NCBI GenBank assembly: GCA_000403335.2
Contig: KE159617.1
Span: forward strand, 334,712 to 383,687
Reading direction: 5' to 3'
Length of the DNA stretch: 48,976 bases
From: Lachnospiraceae bacterium MD335
GTDB lineage: Bacteria; Bacillota; Clostridia; Lachnospirales; Lachnospiraceae
This document shows, piece after piece, positions 36,415-48,520 of the stretch. The position numbers and the translations under genes are program-made. The stretch's first letter is position 1. The number at the start of each line of letters is the position of its first letter. The notes below the pieces were generated by a model. That model worked only from the letters and a program-made list of their open reading frames with translations. It did no database searches and had not been told where the DNA came from.

Positions 36415-36879
36415 ATGGTAGAAGTAAACACGAACGCATTTGGAAAGATTGCCATAGAGGATGACAAAATTATCCGCTTTGAGCATGGAATATTGGGCTT
36501 TCCCGACTTAAAAGACTTTACCCTGATTTTTAACCTTGAGAAGGGTTCAGAGTCTAGCATTAAGTGGCTCCAGTCGTTGGACGAACCGAACTTTGCAATG
36601 CCGGTAATGGACCCGAACCTTGTGGTGAACGAGTATATACCGATGTTTGACAGAGAGCTTTTGAAGCCGTTAGGAGAGGACCTTGTTCCGGAGAATCTGC
36701 TGATGTTGGTGACAGTGACTGTTCCAAAAGACATTACGCAGACAACCGTGAATCTAAAGGCGCCGATTATTGTAAATGTAGAGGAGCGTAAAGCGGTACA
36801 GCTCATCAGTGATGACGACGCATACAGCATCAAGTACGCAATCTATGACAAGCTAAAGGCAAAGAAGGCAGGTGAATAA
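36415..36879 (+). CDS. fliW: Flagellar assembly factor FliW
   Basis: A 154-aa protein with the FliW signatures IIRFEHGILGFPDLKDFTLI and MPVMDPNLVVNEYIP. In Bacillus subtilis FliW binds either flagellin or CsrA; when flagellin is exported, FliW sequesters CsrA and flagellin translation is relieved. It lies 2 bp upstream of csrA, the usual partner arrangement. Confidence 0.95.
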   Translation: MVEVNTNAFGKIAIEDDKIIRFEHGILGFPDLKDFTLIFNLEKGSESSIKWLQSLDEPNFAMPVMDPNLVVNEYIPMFDRELLKPLGEDLVPENLLMLVTVTVPKDITQTTVNLKAPIIVNVEERKAVQLISDDDAYSIKYAIYDKLKAKKAGE

Positions 36880-36881
36880 TT

Positions 36882-37100
36882 ATGTTGGCACTATCAAGAA
36901 AAAAAGGCGAGGCATTAATGATTAATAACGACATAGAGATCACGGTGCTCGACATAAAGGGAGAGCAGGTAAAAATCGGTATTTCAGCTCCGAAGCAGGT
37001 ACCGGTATACCGCAAAGAAGTATATCTGCAGATTCAGGAGGCAAATAAAGAGGCTGCGAATAATACGGCATCCGTAGAACAGCTTGCAAACTTATTTTAA
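36882..37100 (+). CDS. csrA: Carbon storage regulator CsrA
   Basis: A 72-aa RNA-binding dimer protein. RNA-contact residues Leu4, Arg6 (MLALSRKKGE) and Arg44 (VPVYRKEV) are kept, with the GISAPKQVPVYR segment. It blocks translation by binding GGA motifs in hairpin loops and near ribosome sites. Several leaders in this window show such motifs (40533-40546, 48601-48622, 48859-48878). It is coupled to fliW (2 bp) and ends the flgM transcription unit before a terminator. Confidence 0.96.
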   Translation: MLALSRKKGEALMINNDIEITVLDIKGEQVKIGISAPKQVPVYRKEVYLQIQEANKEAANNTASVEQLANLF

Positions 37101-39417: not shown

Positions 39418-39894
39418 ATGCTGAAACAAAACGGATATGCGCAATATCAAAATGCCAAAATTATGACCGCTTCTCCGGCAGAACTTACGCTTATGCTTTA
39501 TGAAGGCGCAATAAAATTTGGAAATATTGCAATTGTAGCGATGGAAAATAAAAATCCGGCAAAGGCACACGAGAATATTGTAAGGGTAGAAAACATTATA
39601 CAGAATTTCAGGGATACGTTGGATAAAAAATATCCGATATGGGAAGAATTCGAAAAGATTTACGTATATCTTCTCCGCAGATGTCATGAATGTAATATAG
39701 CGAAGGACCCTGAAATTATGGAGGAAGTGCTAAAGCACATTCGTTCCATGAGAGACAACTGGAAGGAAGTCATGAAGAAGGTCGCTTCCGATAAGTCAAA
39801 TCCTGCAGCACAGGCGAGAGTGGCAGGCGGACGTGGAAATACGGCAGGGTACACTGCATCAGCGGGGGCTGCAACAAAACTTTCAGGAGCTTAG
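39418..39894 (+). CDS. fliS: Flagellin chaperone FliS
   Basis: A 158-aa helical protein with the FliS start YAQYQNAKIMTASPAELTLM and LYEGAIKFGNIAI, then NIIQNFRDTLDKKYPIWEEF. It is longer than the usual 125-130 aa through a Gly/Ala-rich C-terminal tail (ARVAGGRGNTAGYTASAGAA). FliS binds the C-terminal D0 helices of flagellin before export, the very region that the 104-aa protein at 40595 resembles. Confidence 0.94.
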   Translation: MLKQNGYAQYQNAKIMTASPAELTLMLYEGAIKFGNIAIVAMENKNPAKAHENIVRVENIIQNFRDTLDKKYPIWEEFEKIYVYLLRRCHECNIAKDPEIMEEVLKHIRSMRDNWKEVMKKVASDKSNPAAQARVAGGRGNTAGYTASAGAATKLSGA

Positions 39895-39907
39895 AAAGGG
39901 ATTGGAT

Positions 39908-40384
39908 ATGACGGAAGACTATTTACAAATCATGATAGAAAGTCTCGAAAAGAAAATAGACGTATTGGATCAGGTACTTGAGCTGGATAAAAGGCAGATT
40001 GCGATTGCATTGGAACAGCCCTTTGACATGGAAAAATATGATAAGACAATGGATGAGAAGGGTGCCCTGATTGACGAGCTGAATAAACTTGATGACGGAT
40101 TTACAAGTACCTATGAACGTGTACGGGATGCAGTGCAGGCAGATCCGAAGGCATATGCTGATAAAGTGAAAAGAATGCAGGATTTGATACGCATGGCGGT
40201 AGATAAAAGCGTTGCAGTGGAAGCACAAGAACAGCGCGGGAAACAGGCAATGCAGTCTGCTGTAAATGCCAAGCGTAAAGAAATCAGAACCATTAAGGTC
40301 AGCAATGCGGCTGCGACACAATATTATAAAGCAATGAGCAGGATTAATGATGTAGATCCTCAGCTTATGGATAAAAAGAAATGA
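39908..40384 (+). CDS. fliT: FliT-like flagellar chaperone
   Basis: A 158-aa helical, charged protein (LQIMIESLEKKIDVLDQVLE) with coiled-coil character and no other motif. Position right after fliS fits FliT, the FliD chaperone, or a FlgN-type chaperone; sequence alone does not separate these. ATG 39908 is preferred because AAAGGGATTGG lies upstream, whereas a reading from 39833 overlaps fliS by 62 bp. Confidence 0.75.
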   Translation: MTEDYLQIMIESLEKKIDVLDQVLELDKRQIAIALEQPFDMEKYDKTMDEKGALIDELNKLDDGFTSTYERVRDAVQADPKAYADKVKRMQDLIRMAVDKSVAVEAQEQRGKQAMQSAVNAKRKEIRTIKVSNAAATQYYKAMSRINDVDPQLMDKKK

Positions 40385-40410
40385 ACCGCGTTGCCGGTTC
40401 ATTTCTTTTT
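40373..40410 (+). terminator. Terminator of the flaG-fliT unit
   Basis: AAAAAGAAATGAACCG (40373-40388) and CGGTTCATTTCTTTTT (40395-40410) form a 16-bp stem with a 6-nt loop and end in a T run. The left arm overlaps the stop codon of the fliT-like gene. Confidence 0.88.
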
Positions 40411-40478
40411 ATGCACACGGACACGGTAGCAGGGCTTTCCTGTGTTGTAGAAATTGTGCATACAATTACAAAAATATG

Positions 40479-40507
40479 TTGACATTTTCTGTCAACTACC
40501 GTATACT
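40479..40507 (+). promoter_or_regulatory. Strong SigA promoter with inverted repeat at -35
   Basis: TTGACA (40479-40484), 17 bp, TATACT (40502-40507). TTGACA is also the left arm of an inverted repeat with TGTCAA at 40490-40495, a possible operator. This housekeeping-type promoter stands out in a block otherwise driven by SigD. The start is expected near 40514. Confidence 0.85.
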
Positions 40508-40532
40508 AAACATATAAAAGAAGCTATTTATT

Positions 40533-40574
40533 CTACAGGGAAGTAGCTGCTTATTAGGTAACTATTAATAGCAG
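40533..40574 (+). promoter_or_regulatory. Leader hairpins with near-consensus CsrA site
   Basis: CTAC (40533-40536), loop AGGGAA, GTAG (40543-40546) forms a small hairpin presenting GGA. The run CTACAGGGAAGT matches the CsrA selection consensus RUACARGGAUGU at ten of twelve positions. A second stem follows at once: CTGCT-ATTA (40547-40556, one bulged T) with TAAT-AGCAG (40566-40574). The ribosome site AAGGGAG (40581-40587) lies after it and also contains GGA. Binding by CsrA is inferred. Confidence 0.6.
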
Positions 40575-40594
40575 ATTCAGAAGGGAGTATTGTT

Positions 40595-40909
40595 ATGTTA
40601 GTGAGCAACAATTTGGAAACAGGAAATGCTGCGTATGTGAGGCAGATGGAGCCTGCTGCGAGCAGAAAAGACAGTTCAAAGGAACAGAAAACACAGGAAA
40701 CGGAACAGGCAGCAGAGCTGACATTGTCAAGCCGTATTAAACAGATTGCAGAAGAAAATGTCCTGTCTGCAGGGAGCAGTATTTTAGACGTTTCGAAGGC
40801 GGAGGACATGATCCGTCAGGCAAATTTAAATATTTTGAATGAGGCAGATGATGCCGTGAAAGTTCAGTCGGGACAGACATCGGCAGCAGTTATGGAGTTG
40901 TTGAAATAG
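40595..40909 (+). CDS. Small flagellin C-terminal-helix-like protein, 104 aa
   Basis: I know no family for this protein. Its last 44 residues align without gaps to the C-terminal 44 residues of the flagellin at 40986, with 15 identities including NLNIL and the final LL. They match the D0 helix segment (DMIRQANLNILNEADDAV against KEMVQYSNLNILGQAGQS). The first 45 residues are polar and look unstructured, and no N-terminal flagellin domain exists, so it cannot build filament alone. FliS, and by some accounts FliW, bind this end of flagellin, so it could act as a decoy or sensor (inference). It has its own SigA promoter, a structured leader and a terminator. Confidence 0.8.
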   Translation: MLVSNNLETGNAAYVRQMEPAASRKDSSKEQKTQETEQAAELTLSSRIKQIAEENVLSAGSSILDVSKAEDMIRQANLNILNEADDAVKVQSGQTSAAVMELLK

Positions 40910-40920
40910 GAACTTTTATA

Positions 40921-40956
40921 AAATAAAAACGAGATGTGCAGTCTCGTTTTTATTTT
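40921..40956. terminator. Bidirectional terminator between the small gene and inverted flagellin
   Basis: AAATAAAAACGAGA (40921-40934) and TCTCGTTTTTATTT (40942-40955) form a 14-bp stem with a 7-nt loop and A/T-rich flanks. Confidence 0.88.
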
Positions 40957-40985
40957 GCTATGAGAAAGGAAAGCAACGTGCATTT

Positions 40986-43223
40986 TTATCCAAGCAACGT
41001 TAATATCCCCTGATTCTTTTGATTCGCCTGGGCAAGCATGGACTGTCCTGCCTGTCCTAAGATATTGAGATTAGAGTACTGAACCATCTCTTTTGCCATA
41101 TCCGTATCACGGATCTGTGACTCTGCGGCCTGTGTGTTTTCTGCTGAATTTTTATCAATATTATAAGCATGCTCCATGCGGTTTTGGTATGCTCCAAATA
41201 AAGAGCGCTGGGCGCTTATCATTTCAAGTGCACTGCTGATTTCATCGATGGCAGCGAGTGCATTTTCCTCAGTGAGGACATTTGTATCTTCCAAACCAAG
41301 TGTTTTTAACCGCAGACAATCATAATCAAAATAGATTTTATCGGTTGTTTCGGAACCGCTATGAATATTGAGGTTAATATCCTCGACACTGTCTTGCGGC
41401 AAAAAATCATTTTTTAGCATACTTGATGCGTTGTGGTCGGACTTATAAACATAGGATGTATTTTTATTACCCATATTAAAATTAAGATCAAAAAGAGTAT
41501 TGTCATTAAATGCGGTGTTTAGCTTATCCAATATGGACCGTTCGGTATCATTTGAAGTTACTTCTAATTGAAACGTAAAGGAGCCCACAATATTGGATGT
41601 CAGATCATTACCGGCATTGTCTTTTCCGTATACATAAGGCGTATCTGCCGTAACATCAAAAGTAATATAAATATATCCGCCCTTATCAGATGCGCCCTTG
41701 TTTCCGGTAGCAGCGTTGTTTGTGATATTCTTTGATAAGAGGCCGTTATCACCGGTAAGCGTATGCATGACATCTCCCAAAGAGCCGTCTCCGACTGTTC
41801 TATGGATTGTTGAAGCATGCCAACGCTTTATGTCATATTTGCCGGTTTGCGGATTTCGTTCATAGGTGTAAGTGGGCGACCAGAACCGTCCGCCGTCATA
41901 GGTATCTTTATTCGCCGGATCGCCTGCATCGGTTCCTTCCCATGATACGGATGTAACACTAGACGGGGTTCTTTCCGGGACCGGATGGGCATCGGTGTCT
42001 TTTGAATAGTAGGAAACCTGTGAGGAGGTTGCTGTCAGGTTACCGAGTCCCGCCGATGTGAAGGCAAGCTGCCAATGCTCTGAGGAGTTGCGCGCAGCGT
42101 CCAAACTTGCCCCTGCATTTGGTATTTTTGTCATATTTCCGCCGGAAGCATTCTTCACAGGTTCGATAAATATATCCGAAGGCGTTTCGAAATCGTATCC
42201 GGAAGTGCCTTTATTTTTTGCAAGTACGGCGTCGGCATAAGCTGCCGCGTAAACAAAGGAATGCGAATAAACAGAAAGTCCGGCAGAATTCAGGGTTCCG
42301 TTTTCATCCTCAAATGTTGTAGAAGACCCTACATGGTAGCTCATAGTAGTTCCGTTAATCGCTTTTGCAATCTGCTCATTTGTTGCTCCGGTCACAACAC
42401 CGAGGGATATGCTAAAGTCGTACTTTGCGTCACCGTTTGCATCAAGGAGCTGCTTATCCGGATCCGTTATTGCGGTTCCATTACTGTCTTTATTCTCAAA
42501 ATAGTCACCAATATTAAACTGAAAATCATTCTCCCGGAGCGTATCCCAATCAATTGTTTTGGTTTTGTAAGTTGTGCCGTTATAAGCAGACCATGTCAGA
42601 TTTACACCGTCAGAATCCGCATGAATCATGTAAGAGCTGCTGCTGTTATAAAAATAATGATAATCGGTAACATTGCTTTGGCGAGGTGGGTTTGCCGGCA
42701 TTAATCCAAATGTCTCATTATTAATAACCAAATTTTGCGAATTCGGCGTGTTTACAGTTGTAGACTGTACAGACACCTGCCCGATTACTCCTTTATTTAT
42801 AATAATATCCTCTTTCCAAACCTGTTTCTCATTAAAAGAAGTCGTAACAAAAATACGCTCCATTTCCGCCTTGAGCTGTTGTACTTCACTATTGATATGT
42901 GCCCGGTCTGTTTCTGAATTTGTTCCATTAGCAGCCTGCACGGAAAGCTCATTGATTCTTTGCAGCATATCGTGTACCTCATTCAATGCGCCGTCAGCTA
43001 CCTGCGCATAGCTGATTCCGTCTTCTATATTTTCAGCGGCTCTGTTCAAACCGCGTATCTGTTTTCGCATTTTTTCAGAAATGGATAATCCGGCAGCATT
43101 ATCGGCGCTGCGGTTTATGCTGTAACCTGATGACAGCTTTTCAGTGGAAGATGATAGTTTTTCAGATACAATTCCAAATTGTCGGTTGGCATTAATGGCT
43201 GGCATATTGTGCTGTATCACCAT
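40986..43223 (-). CDS. fliC: Flagellin, 745 aa, inverted orientation
   Basis: A large flagellin. The D0/D1 N-terminus is MVIQHNMPAINANRQFGI and LSSGYSINRSADNAAGL, with the TLR5-contact stretch LQRINELSVQAANGT. The C-terminus is IRDTDMAKEMVQYSNLNILG and ends GILTLLG. Residues about 150-610 form a large exposed variable part rich in Thr/Asn/Gly/Tyr. It is the only flagellin here on the minus strand and the most divergent of the three complete ones; it lacks the D1 cysteines of the other two. AAAGGAGG precedes the ATG. Confidence 0.95.
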   Translation of the reverse strand: MVIQHNMPAINANRQFGIVSEKLSSSTEKLSSGYSINRSADNAAGLSISEKMRKQIRGLNRAAENIEDGISYAQVADGALNEVHDMLQRINELSVQAANGTNSETDRAHINSEVQQLKAEMERIFVTTSFNEKQVWKEDIIINKGVIGQVSVQSTTVNTPNSQNLVINNETFGLMPANPPRQSNVTDYHYFYNSSSSYMIHADSDGVNLTWSAYNGTTYKTKTIDWDTLRENDFQFNIGDYFENKDSNGTAITDPDKQLLDANGDAKYDFSISLGVVTGATNEQIAKAINGTTMSYHVGSSTTFEDENGTLNSAGLSVYSHSFVYAAAYADAVLAKNKGTSGYDFETPSDIFIEPVKNASGGNMTKIPNAGASLDAARNSSEHWQLAFTSAGLGNLTATSSQVSYYSKDTDAHPVPERTPSSVTSVSWEGTDAGDPANKDTYDGGRFWSPTYTYERNPQTGKYDIKRWHASTIHRTVGDGSLGDVMHTLTGDNGLLSKNITNNAATGNKGASDKGGYIYITFDVTADTPYVYGKDNAGNDLTSNIVGSFTFQLEVTSNDTERSILDKLNTAFNDNTLFDLNFNMGNKNTSYVYKSDHNASSMLKNDFLPQDSVEDINLNIHSGSETTDKIYFDYDCLRLKTLGLEDTNVLTEENALAAIDEISSALEMISAQRSLFGAYQNRMEHAYNIDKNSAENTQAAESQIRDTDMAKEMVQYSNLNILGQAGQSMLAQANQKNQGILTLLG

Positions 43224-45362: not shown

Positions 45363-45554
45363 TATATATATTATAATTATAGAAAAGAAATAAAAATGAA
45401 GACAGAGATGTTGATTGTTAATGAAAATAGAAGAGTATGGCAAGAGGGCAGTGACGAAAAAGGAATAAGCAAGCTTAAATTGTTGGAAAATTATGTATAT
45501 TTATTAACCAATATAAATAATTACATAATAAATTAACATTTTTCAGAAAATAAC

Positions 45555-45581
45555 TAAAGTTGGCAGAAAATATACCGATAT
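45555..45581 (+). promoter_or_regulatory. SigD promoter of the third flagellin
   Basis: TAAA (45555-45558), 15 bp, ACCGATAT (45574-45581), a near-perfect SigD promoter. The start would be near 45590 and the leader over 90 nt long, the longest of the forward flagellins. Confidence 0.88.
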
Positions 45582-45654
45582 AATTATTGAACATATAAAA
45601 GGTTACTTTCAAAGAAAACTATAGGGAAAGTAAAAAATTAAAATGTAAGGGACG

Positions 45655-45684
45655 AAAGGAGGAAGCGCCGGGAAGGAGCCGGCG
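45655..45684 (+). promoter_or_regulatory. Leader hairpin with a ribosome site in its loop
   Basis: CGCCGG (45666-45671) pairs with CCGGCG (45679-45684) around loop GAAGGAG. The loop holds an AAGGAG ribosome site 5 nt before a GTG (45684), and a second site AAAGGAGG lies before the stem (45655-45662). With the stem folded the upstream site sits about 12 nt from ATG 45696. The loop also carries the GGA expected of a CsrA site. A further 8-bp stem, TTACTTTC (45603-45610) with GAAAGTAA (45626-45633), lies upstream. Confidence 0.5.
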
Positions 45685-45695
45685 TGGAAAAAGGT

Positions 45696-47330
45696 ATGGT
45701 AGTACAACATAATATGCAGGCGATGAACGCCAACAGAATGTTAGGAATTACAACAGGAGAAGCATCACACGCGACAGAAAAACTTTCATCAGGTTACAAG
45801 ATTAACCGTGCAGCAGACAATGCGGCAGGACTTGCAATTTCCGAGAAGATGAGAAAGCAGATCAGAGGTCTGACTCAGGCTTCAACCAACGCCGAGGACG
45901 GCGTATCCTGCGTACAGACGGCAGAGGGTGCGTTAGCAGAGATTCAGGACATGCTCCAAAGAATGAACGAGCTTTGCGTACAGGCGGCAAACGGAACAAA
46001 TTCAGAGACAGACCGTCAGTACATTCAGGATGAGATTGATGAGTTGATTACGGAGATTGACCGTGTATCAGAGACAACAAAGTTCAATGAGCTTTACCTT
46101 TTAAAGGGTGATGCGGAGAATAAGGGCTACACAAACAAATATGTGGAGAATTATCTCATACTTCCTACGGAAAATACGCTTTTATCGGCAGGAGTATCGT
46201 CACCGAAATATAAGTTTAACTATATTGGAGATGCCAATATATATGTAACAAGCGCTTCTGTGGCGGATTCACCGGTAAACCAGCCTGCTTCTGCCGTAGT
46301 AATAAAGAACGGGCAGGACATGACGGAATATTTGCAGCCAGAATCGGGAACTCCTGTTAATACAGTTACATATCCGCAGGCAATCAATACAACATCCTAT
46401 GCGGCATTTATTAATGCAACCCTGGATCCTGCTATGATTGGACAGGATAAAAATGGAGCAGATGTTGTTGCAAAAGGCAAAGAGATGTACATATTTGATA
46501 CGGAAACGGAAGTTGTATATCATCTTGTGGAAGGAGATGCACTTTCAGACTATCTCACAGATGACAAGCAGATGGAAGATCGGTACAGATATGTTATAGA
46601 ATATGAATTGCCTACTGGTGATGACATCGAAAAGGCGCTTGAGATTGATCGTTCAATGGCGAAACTCTATGACTCGGACGGAAATGTTGTATCAGGTATC
46701 GCATTAAACTCTTACTTTGACAGCAACGGAAATTACACGGGCGGATTATTTAAGACTGCACAGGCAAGAGTGGACGATGCAATATTGTCAAAGGCGGAAG
46801 CGGAGGCGCTTACAGATAAGGCTGATGGTACAGCATTTACCGATGAAGAGAAGAAAATGCTTAACATCGAGAACTGGATCTCACAAGTAGCGACAAAGGT
46901 TCCAAAGGAACTGGAGTTTGATCTTCATGTAGGTTCTGACAGTAACATTGAGAATAAGATTACAACAAAAATTGAGACTATTTCAGCGGCAGGAATCGGC
47001 ATTGATATGCTTCACAGCAATAAGGTTGGTATTGTAGACGTAAATGGAGATAATGCGACATCTGCAGTGGATGTTGTAGGAGATGCTTTGATAGCTGTAT
47101 CAAGACAGCGTTCCGCACTTGGTGCCGTACAAAATCGTTTAGAGCATACGATTAAGAATTTGGACAACGTTGTTGAGAATACCACAGAGGCAGAATCAAC
47201 AATCCGTGATACAGATATGGCAGAAGAAATGGTGAAGTATTCAAATACACAGATTCTTCAGCAGGCAGGTCAGTCAATGCTTGCACAGGCAAACCAGTCT
47301 AATCAGGGTGTAATGACATTATTAGGATAA
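45696..47330 (+). CDS. fliC: Flagellin, 544 aa
   Basis: A flagellin starting [20 protein letters not shown], with LSSGYKINRAADNAAGLAIS, the two D1 cysteines (GVSCVQT, NELCVQ), [15 protein letters not shown] and the C-terminus [20 protein letters not shown], ending GVMTLLG. The variable middle (about 145-425) differs from the other flagellins. ATG 45696 is used because it gives the N-terminus shared by all flagellins here. A GTG at 45684 would add MEKG and has a better-placed ribosome site, so the true start is open. Confidence 0.95.
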   Translation: MVVQHNMQAMNANRMLGITTGEASHATEKLSSGYKINRAADNAAGLAISEKMRKQIRGLTQASTNAEDGVSCVQTAEGALAEIQDMLQRMNELCVQAANGTNSETDRQYIQDEIDELITEIDRVSETTKFNELYLLKGDAENKGYTNKYVENYLILPTENTLLSAGVSSPKYKFNYIGDANIYVTSASVADSPVNQPASAVVIKNGQDMTEYLQPESGTPVNTVTYPQAINTTSYAAFINATLDPAMIGQDKNGADVVAKGKEMYIFDTETEVVYHLVEGDALSDYLTDDKQMEDRYRYVIEYELPTGDDIEKALEIDRSMAKLYDSDGNVVSGIALNSYFDSNGNYTGGLFKTAQARVDDAILSKAEAEALTDKADGTAFTDEEKKMLNIENWISQVATKVPKELEFDLHVGSDSNIENKITTKIETISAAGIGIDMLHSNKVGIVDVNGDNATSAVDVVGDALIAVSRQRSALGAVQNRLEHTIKNLDNVVENTTEAESTIRDTDMAEEMVKYSNTQILQQAGQSMLAQANQSNQGVMTLLG

Positions 47331-47452: not shown

Positions 47453-48520
47453 ATGTCAAAAATACCAATTTCAGTGTGTATTATTGCGAAAAATGAGGAA
47501 CGATATATCGAGGGCTGTCTTCAGCATCTAAAGCCTTTTGGATTTGAGATTGTCGTGGCCGATACGGGCTCCACAGACCGGACAAAAGAAATTGCAGAAA
47601 AATATGCGGATAAAGTTGTAGATTTTGAATGGATTGATGATTTTGCAGCGGCAAGAAATTTCTGTGCAGAGCATGCTTCCAATAATTGGATATTGGCGCT
47701 TGACTGTGACGAGTATATGGACAGTTTTGACATAGCAAAGGTGCGCATATTGATGCAGCGGTTTGTAAAGAGTGTCGGAAGATTCCAGCTGAAAAACCTG
47801 CTGAAAGGAAATGACGGAAGAGATCGGTTTACGGTTGATGATGTGATTCGCTTCTATAATAAAAAGCGTTTTAAGTGGGAAAATGCCATTCATGAGCAGC
47901 TTGTCCATATTCATGATTCGGAGGATATGAAATATCACTGTTTTGATGTGCCAATGGAAGTCATTCATCATGGATATAATATATCAGCGGAGGAAATGCA
48001 AGAGAAGCAGCTTCGTAATTTAAGACTTCTTGAAAAACAGCTTGAAAGCGATCCGGATGATTCTTACACATGGTTTCAGGCGGGACAATCACATTTTCTG
48101 CTGCATGATTATGAAAAGGCAGTGGAAGCATATGAAACGGCTCTTTCCATAGAAACGAACATCAGGCGGTATTTTGTGGAGATTTTGATAGAATCGCTTG
48201 CAAAGGCATATATCAATCTCGACAGGCCGCAGGATGCAATAGCGCTTTTGCTCAAATATGGAGAGCAATTTAAAACAGCAAAGTATTCTGCTGTTCTCAG
48301 CGACGCATATTTGCAAAATAAGGATGTTCTGAAGGCGCTTATGAATTATATCAGGACAGTGTCTTTGGAGGACAGGGATACATTAGGGGATGGTCTGTTA
48401 GTCTGTTACAGCAGAATTATTGATATATACAGAGGCATGGGACAGCATGATATGGCGGATATGTATACGGATTTGCATGAGAAATGCAGGCTGGAAAGGG
48501 AACGGATCATAAATAAATAA
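47453..48520 (+). CDS. Family 2 glycosyltransferase with C-terminal TPR-like repeats
   Basis: A 355-aa cytoplasmic protein. Residues 1-210 are a GT-A domain: SVCIIAKNEERYIEGCL, VVADTGSTDRTKEIA, DDFAAARNFC and the DxD-like LALDCDEYM. The C-terminal 130 residues form helical TPR-like repeats (DSYTWFQAGQSHFLLHDYEK, AVEAYETALSIE). Enzymes of this type often glycosylate proteins or cell-surface chains. Its SigD promoter and its place between flagellin genes suggest it glycosylates flagellin (inference). AAAGGA lies 12 nt before the ATG. Confidence 0.88.
   Translation: MSKIPISVCIIAKNEERYIEGCLQHLKPFGFEIVVADTGSTDRTKEIAEKYADKVVDFEWIDDFAAARNFCAEHASNNWILALDCDEYMDSFDIAKVRILMQRFVKSVGRFQLKNLLKGNDGRDRFTVDDVIRFYNKKRFKWENAIHEQLVHIHDSEDMKYHCFDVPMEVIHHGYNISAEEMQEKQLRNLRLLEKQLESDPDDSYTWFQAGQSHFLLHDYEKAVEAYETALSIETNIRRYFVEILIESLAKAYINLDRPQDAIALLLKYGEQFKTAKYSAVLSDAYLQNKDVLKALMNYIRTVSLEDRDTLGDGLLVCYSRIIDIYRGMGQHDMADMYTDLHEKCRLERERIINK

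Follow-up and report, generated by a model that had tools for sequence, protein, structure and literature searches.

A D0-plus-spoke mini-flagellin in a genus of Lachnospiraceae: a probable occupant of the flagellin chaperone

Background

What is a protein of 104 amino acids that ends like a flagellin doing next to a flagellin gene? The question arises from a stretch of 48,976 nt of Lachnospiraceae bacterium MD335 (GCA_000403335.2, contig KE159617.1, positions 334,712-383,687 of the forward strand), which we call the window. In our opinion, judging from sequence comparison, the product of this gene probably keeps the flagellin chaperone occupied and does not serve as filament material. We set out below what this opinion rests on and which other explanations have to be weighed against it.

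Sequence and domain composition

The open reading frame lies at 40595..40909 on the plus strand, begins with ATG and encodes 104 amino acids, exactly as given in the first-pass annotation. It had also been claimed that the last 44 residues align without gaps to the end of the neighbouring flagellin (745 amino acids, 40986..43223, minus strand; recognised from its reading frame, Pfam and BLASTP) with 15 identities including NLNIL, and we reproduced this alignment exactly. With BLOSUM62 it scores 76, and the best of 20,000 shuffles reaches 32; the second-best ungapped placement along the flagellin gives 11 identities. BLASTP of the two proteins aligns 56 residues with 19 identities (E 4e-7 for a single comparison). 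The shuffle test and BLASTP rule out a chance match.

Residues 53-104 (40751..40906, plus strand) correspond by sequence comparison to the spoke and D0 helix of flagellin and form the predicted FliS-binding stretch; the limits of D0 and spoke are those of the flagellin literature. The Pfam model Flagellin_C (PF00700) matches residues 52-103 with 14.5 bits (E 0.046), which is under its cut-off of 23. In four of seven scanned relatives (L041, L042, L035, L040) the score is above the cut-off at 25.7-32 bits, in three (L048, L043, L032) below it at 14.1-16.9 bits, and a match at E up to 1 is present in 16 of 19 family members. AlphaFold2 predicts a helix over residues 26-103 of the window protein, with the highest pLDDT at residues 61-90 and values under 50 across most of residues 1-30. 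Fold comparison of a low-confidence model with the PDB gave no match at E up to 10.

The first-pass annotation further held that there is no N-terminal flagellin domain. For the family this is incorrect, since members of the main clade keep the N-terminal segment of flagellin, which stays in register up to around residue 51; in the clade of the window that segment is decayed. After removal of the last 52 residues from the 22 family members described below, the remainders were searched with a genus-specific model made from the first 70 residues of 65 flagellins of the genus, with 99-100 shuffles for each protein. With E-values that refer to 25 sequences, the model finds 13 of the 22 proteins at 0.003 or below, and 15 of the 22 outscore all of their own shuffles; these counts are not independent because some rows are near-duplicates (L048/L126, L036/L037). 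In the twelve alignments that we inspected the match opens at model positions 3-21 and closes at 49-51, at a nearly equal distance from the start. In the window the N-terminal part (residues 1-52, 40595..40750, plus strand) is a faint remnant of what is clear in the main clade: it scores 7.3 bits, and 1 of 100 shuffles does as well. For L047 the score is 4.6 bits (2 of 99 shuffles as good). L031, L033 and L049b are indistinguishable from their 99-100 shuffles (14 and 9 as good for the first two, 42 of 99 for L049b), and no flagellin N-terminus was detected by this model in the third clade, L043 and L046, where 58 and 80 of 100 shuffles are as good. The general Pfam model PF00669 matches at E up to 1 in 7 of 19 members (best E 0.0023), with bit scores of 11.8-15.5 in three relatives against a cut-off of 26.6.

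A search of the PDB with the family profile returned 43 sequences; every one carries flagellin or flagella in its name, and one is fused to a hook-associated protein. One flagellin is matched at both ends, at its start by profile positions 1-101 (7.4 bits, weak if taken alone) and at its end by positions 18-111 (50.4 bits). The D1 core domain is absent, the N-terminal and C-terminal segments being adjacent in proteins of 104-114 amino acids. Because the two matches align to the two ends of flagellin, the family is, on this comparison, a flagellin with its middle removed, that is, a "D0-plus-spoke" mini-flagellin that has lost D1-D3. The earlier statement that such a protein cannot polymerise in the usual way is supported: with D1 missing, a normal filament would not be expected.

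Distribution and phylogeny

When 60 related genomes were searched with the window protein, many flagellins were found and, in addition, 18 matches with E-values between 1.7e-35 and 3.6e-8 whose open frames measure 116-145 amino acids from stop to stop. With a profile of 18 rows we then searched 38 genomes of the genus, the window's genome included, and found 22 mini-flagellin genes in 21 of them, the window's counted. Each of the 21 genomes has one match at E 1.4e-36 or better, and G032 has a second copy at 5.6e-20; full flagellins start at 6.1e-15 or weaker, which leaves a gap in E-value below the minis. All 22 proteins are 104-114 amino acids long, where for several the start is an ATG within the frame that was picked from the alignment. 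The second copy of G032 (L049:2574-2909) is strongly diverged, lies beside flagellins and has a short leader and its own TTGACA-17-TATTAT; with this one exception, the other short frames that we inspected in the genus are ordinary flagellin C-terminal sequence. The profile search that had been proposed as a check returned a conserved family of the genus and not truncated flagellins lacking conservation.

No copy was seen in 17 of the 38 genomes, and among the 18 with completeness of at least 90% and contamination of at most 5% it is present in nine. Flagellin-type matches occur in all 38 genomes, FliS in 35 (one match in each) and FliW in 35. Since 16 of the 17 genomes that lack the gene keep FliW, 15 keep FliS and all keep flagellin, the mini-flagellin is not essential. 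Its co-occurrence with FliW or FliS across the 38 genomes gives no discrimination.

In wider samples, only the window's own gene was found among the matches listed for 397 genomes of the family, and 391 genomes of the class and 398 of the phylum likewise showed no other; the three samples overlap, and the family sample includes two genomes of the genus. Among the matches listed in the family sample, seven others lie in frames shorter than 200 amino acids, with scores at the level of flagellins, and as all of them reach a contig end they are, as far as can be told, cut flagellins. Two matches in the class sample are flagellins in frames of 293 amino acids. A scan of named genomes gave 20 loci, all in Lachnospiraceae, including Lachnospiraceae bacterium A4 and IMSAGC_011. 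A phage origin was considered and rejected, the relative L041 having no match at E 1e-5 among 50,697 phage records. In a midpoint-rooted tree of FliW and FliS from 34 of the 38 genomes (20 of the 21 that bear the gene), several supports of which are weak, the bearers occupy three regions; the third comprises G013 and G023, which do not group as sisters.

Conservation and selection

Might the gene be a functionless, decaying fragment of a flagellin gene? It is indeed derived from flagellin, and true flagellin fragments, many at contig ends, do occur in these assemblies. However, pooled over nine pairs pN is 0.068 and pS 0.350, an uncorrected pN/pS of 0.195, although one pair in the pool (L048/L126) shows almost no change. 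By halves the pooled ratio is 0.27 for the N-terminal and 0.12 for the C-terminal part, and both halves are under purifying selection. None of the 22 genes contains an internal stop, certain residues are invariant across the three clades, and the upstream region is conserved as well (mean column identity 83% over 13 main-clade stretches and 82% over four window-clade stretches). On the pN/pS ratio and the conservation we reject a pseudogene, and we regard decay as extremely improbable.

All 22 proteins keep the residues at positions matching A269, M272, I280, L281, Q291, Q294 and L302 of Hag, where positions in the minis were mapped by distance from the C-terminus. The position of L303 is kept in 20, and the two genomes of the third clade end in a single Leu instead of two. 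Asn is found at the position of N293 in 18 and is replaced by Gly in the window clade, and Glu-Asn matching E254-N255 is found in 21. Over the 45 C-terminal positions the minis and those flagellins that passed a register check (59 of 65, six being dropped) share the same conserved residue at 16, have conserved but different residues at 5, and show conservation in the minis alone at 5 and in flagellins alone at 19. The 5 conserved but different positions include 285-286 (Hag numbering), where most minis have Asp-Asp for the Gly-Gln of flagellin. At 297, 54 of 65 flagellins have Gln, which is absent from all 22 minis. At 300, Leu stands in 55 of 59 flagellins, whereas 16 of the 22 minis have Thr or Ser and those of the window clade M, I, I and V. 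Because of these class counts the C-terminus of the minis is, as far as sequence comparison goes, a specialised version of the flagellin end and not a copy of it.

Promoter and genomic context

The fliW (36415..36879; PF02623, E 3.1e-35), csrA (36882..37100; PF02599, E 3.6e-26) and fliS genes (39418..39894; PF02561, E 6.8e-36), all on the plus strand, do lie upstream of the mini-flagellin gene, as had been pointed out for fliS and fliW, and FliS is its presumed partner. The order in the window is fliS, an open frame at 39833-40384 and the mini-flagellin gene, which is convergent with the flagellin gene. We annotated the stretches around 18 relatives, some of which are short contigs, by similarity to the window proteins. 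In 13 of them fliS and the frame after it are present; in two (L045, L048) flagellins are present and fliS was not seen; in three (L043, L046, L047) neither was seen. The mini-flagellin gene lies outside a flagellar cluster in L043 (9580-9912) and L046 (10069-10401), and in L043 it adjoins a gene that by eye resembles UDP-glucose dehydrogenase, with no flagellar gene recognised there. The frame after fliS, present in all 13 stretches that hold fliS, has no convincing Pfam match, and from its position one might guess at a FliT-like role. At 47453-48520 of the window lies a gene that by eye resembles a glycosyltransferase. Of the 18 mini-bearing stretches 16 contain a relative of it, and its frequent place between flagellin genes suggests glycosylation of flagellin.

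A housekeeping-type promoter, TTGACA-17-TATACT, stands before the gene at 40479..40507 on the plus strand. Of the 22 mini genes 21 have the type TTGACA-17-TAnnnT no more than 180 nt from the start, and the 22nd, that of L047, has it at -225; none of 65 flagellin genes has it within 180 nt. Within the same distance CCGATA, the core of the sigma-28 promoter, precedes none of the 22 mini genes and 24 of the 65 flagellin genes, the 41 other flagellin genes being without it, and the shorter CCGAT precedes 3 and 26. The core TTGACATAGTCWGACAATTC of the main clade occurs exactly once in each of 15 genomes, always before the mini gene by coordinates, and when two mismatches are allowed the three further matches are at the level of a reversed-pattern control (6). 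The core of the window clade likewise has one exact occurrence in each of the clade's four genomes, so the cores are invariant within these clades and single in 19 of the 21 mini-bearing genomes. The same type of hexamers, with other cores, is found in both genomes of the third clade and for the second mini gene of G032. By itself the one site that a general promoter scan gives for the window promoter means little, because shuffles average 1.4; the evidence is the conservation.

Over the -35 element lies a perfect dyad, GTTGACATTTTCTGTCAAC (40478..40496), which occurs once per genome in the four window-clade genomes and is a possible operator. It is also one of two terminator-like sites that a terminator scan called in the stretch scanned, where shuffles average 0.4. 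The second site, a hairpin with a T run at 40380..40403 on the plus strand, comes after the frame that follows fliS and would fit a mini gene that is transcribed separately. Between the convergent mini and flagellin genes we saw by eye an inverted repeat with A and T runs (40925..40951); the scan did not call it, and it is likely a terminator shared by the two genes. In L041 and L044 a motif of the type ATTGTCTGAA precedes the -35 element of the mini gene by about 45 nt and may represent another copy of an operator akin to the promoter's TCTGACAATT. Stretches like TTTTCAGAAAAT, which resemble the CodY box, lie near a sigma-28-type element before the third flagellin of the window (45519-45698) and upstream of flagellins in L032 and L037.

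Leader RNA and the FliW alternative

The mini-flagellin could act on FliW: as a mimic of cytoplasmic flagellin it would occupy FliW and free CsrA to repress flagellin, its own leader being under CsrA control as well. The leader carries an element, CTACAGGGAAGTAG (40533..40546, plus strand), which by eye and on weak evidence is CsrA-site-like, having a GGA and short inverted arms. The leaders of 13 main-clade genes (L047 and L126 are left out of the alignment) share one helix with 94.8% paired cells. Two of its six pairs are changed on both sides, which 64 of 500 shuffles reach, and its covariation score is reached by 7 of 500 shuffles, a measure that is weak for related sequences. A second GGA about 20 nt before that of the ribosome site is present in all 14 main-clade leaders examined. 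By thermodynamic sampling against 40 shuffles for each of the 22 leaders, however, only those of L043, L038, L041 and L047 place a GGA in a hairpin loop with no more than 4 shuffles doing as well; for the window 12 of the 40 do as well, which is no better than shuffles. CsrA control of the leader is therefore kept as a suggestion. No known RNA family matches 40380-41000 at E up to 1.

As to binding, the conserved Glu-Asn of 21 of the 22 minis falls inside the stretch 240-260 that FliW is reported to protect (PMC6070490), and Titz 2006, a study cited in PMC5466977, reported that a C-terminal Asn is crucial if FliW is to bind. Of the 21 mini-bearing genomes 19 have FliW, but it is equally common without the gene. 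The Asn in question is presumably N255. On the other hand, in both species studied FliW was found to bind mainly the N-terminal part of flagellin, with N60 and N72 reported as the only soluble constructs that bind FliW (PMC6070490, PMC5466977), and FlaC of Campylobacter, by the account in PMC5466977, has the Asn and is not bound by FliW. In two of the three clades of minis, the window's included, just this N-terminus has decayed. Binding of the mini-flagellin to FliW is thus doubtful, and we consider the FliW explanation as a whole to be improbable. FliS is the likelier partner by comparison of sequences, because FliW binding maps mainly to an N-terminus that is flagellin-like in the main clade alone.

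Presentation of the hypothesis

Our preferred reading is that the mini-flagellin binds FliS and mainly modulates the amount of FliS that is free for the true flagellins; we would put its probability at roughly 0.4. A flagellin copy would have lost D1-D3 and remained as a separate gene, its conserved C-terminal helix would bind the single FliS chaperone, and as a competitor or a chaperone buffer it would set the level of free FliS. Modulation is favoured because a protein without D1 would not be a normal filament subunit. If made from its own housekeeping-type promoter, it could be present ahead of the sigma-28-dependent flagellins. As FliS has one match per genome, competition is possible, and since the C-terminus is kept in all clades and the flagellin-like N-terminus in the main clade only, the common function should lie with a partner of the C-terminus.

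What is published on FliS fits this. FliS sits on the C-terminal D0 of flagellin (PMC5466977, PMC6070490, PMC7248283) and is reported to need it down to the last 10 residues (PMC5466977). Q501, L512 and L513 of FlaB are described as its hydrogen-bond partners (PMC7248283), and counted from the C-terminus they align with the conserved Q291, L302 and L303 positions of Hag. Three further contacts of FlaB, E481, S482 and F485, are unmatched in the window protein, which has D71, M72 and Q75 there when mapped from the end. Retention of FliS contacts is also expected from ancestry, because they are equally conserved in true flagellins; and a second contact area of FliS lies on D1 (PMC6070490), so that minis, having no D1, could bind more weakly. 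The idea of a small mimic is supported in so far as this is a conserved, real gene, as opposed to a relic, and keeps the C-terminal helix bound by FliS; that it consists of that helix only is not supported, because the main clade retains more.

Binding to FliS through the retained C-terminal helix is the most likely activity, whether as competitor or as cargo. In the latter case FliS would escort the mini-flagellin to the flagellar secretion gate. It would then be secreted, in the way of FlaC, the non-structural flagellin that Campylobacter secretes, or take a place in the core of the filament as a minor subunit made of D0 only. FlaC is reported to be secreted and bound by FliS but not by FliW (PMC5466977), and the N-terminus of the main clade, in register to about residue 51, overlaps the secretion signals reported for FliC, residues 1-47 and 26-47 (PMC6337784). 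The helices of the A2 model (7-33, 42-53 and 59-112) come in the order expected for D0-N, spoke and C-helix, albeit at low confidence (mean pLDDT 64.2). But this N-terminus is faint in the window and was undetected in L043, L046 and L049b, Asp-Asp for Gly-Gln at 285-286 may not suit D0 packing, and the authors of PMC6337784 state that their own data disagree with reports of efficient secretion by 26-47 alone. We find export as cargo rather unlikely.

To return to FliS modulation, the minis may hold FliS and yet dock poorly, because they differ from flagellins at 297 and 300: Hag mutants at these positions had impaired filaments, and the authors assign both patches to recognition by FlhA (PMC6070490). 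This argument is weakened by the denial, in PMC7248283, of a direct FliC-FlhA contact in Salmonella. The loss at 300, moreover, does not extend to the clade of the window, with its M, I, I and V. One may go further and imagine a flagellin stripped to its chaperone-recognised ends and given a dedicated housekeeping promoter, whose sole job would be to hold FliS, perhaps also FliW, before flagellin is made, an anti-chaperone or checkpoint mimic in the assembly of the filament. This stronger version is speculative and rather unlikely.

Relation to known systems

The minis resemble flagellin FliC/Hag (PF00669 plus PF00700) in their N-terminal segment, in the main clade, and in the C-terminal spoke and D0 helix. 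They differ from it in being 104-114 amino acids long without D1-D3, in the Asp-Asp that most have for Gly-Gln, and in their housekeeping-type promoter, a core of the sigma-28 type being common before flagellin genes. A short flagellin-like reading frame is also known in Bacillus subtilis, where YvzB, of about 190 amino acids, contains a larger C-terminal part of flagellin. FlaC of Campylobacter jejuni is similarly a flagellin paralogue outside the filament that is bound by FliS, but it keeps D0 and D1 and is secreted (PMC5466977), whereas the mini lacks D1. HP1076 of Helicobacter pylori is likewise a small protein with a likeness to part of flagellin, with which it competes for FliS; it differs, by its description, in having 171 amino acids and a structural likeness to D1, whereas the mini is a homologue of the D0 and spoke ends, and motility without a detrimental phenotype is reported for an hp1076-null strain (PMC7248283). 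The flagellin-homologous proteins of Vibrio are reported to be flagellin-like proteins beyond the needs of the filament (PMC6692518). A flagellin look-alike that occupies FliS thus has precedent, because HP1076 competes for FliS and FlaC is bound by it. Since we found no description of a D0-only flagellin-derived protein in the open-licence papers searched, what appears to be new here is the D0-only homologue, while the idea of a look-alike occupying FliS was already known.

Implications of the hypothesis

If the mini-flagellin binds FliS, it would be a minimal ligand that nature provides for the flagellin chaperone, and a means to set flagellin export at the protein level, separately from the transcription of flagellin genes. 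It would also be an example of a structural protein reduced by an internal deletion to a regulator. For motile gut Lachnospiraceae, with several flagellin genes and one common FliS, it would offer a handle on flagellin homeostasis.
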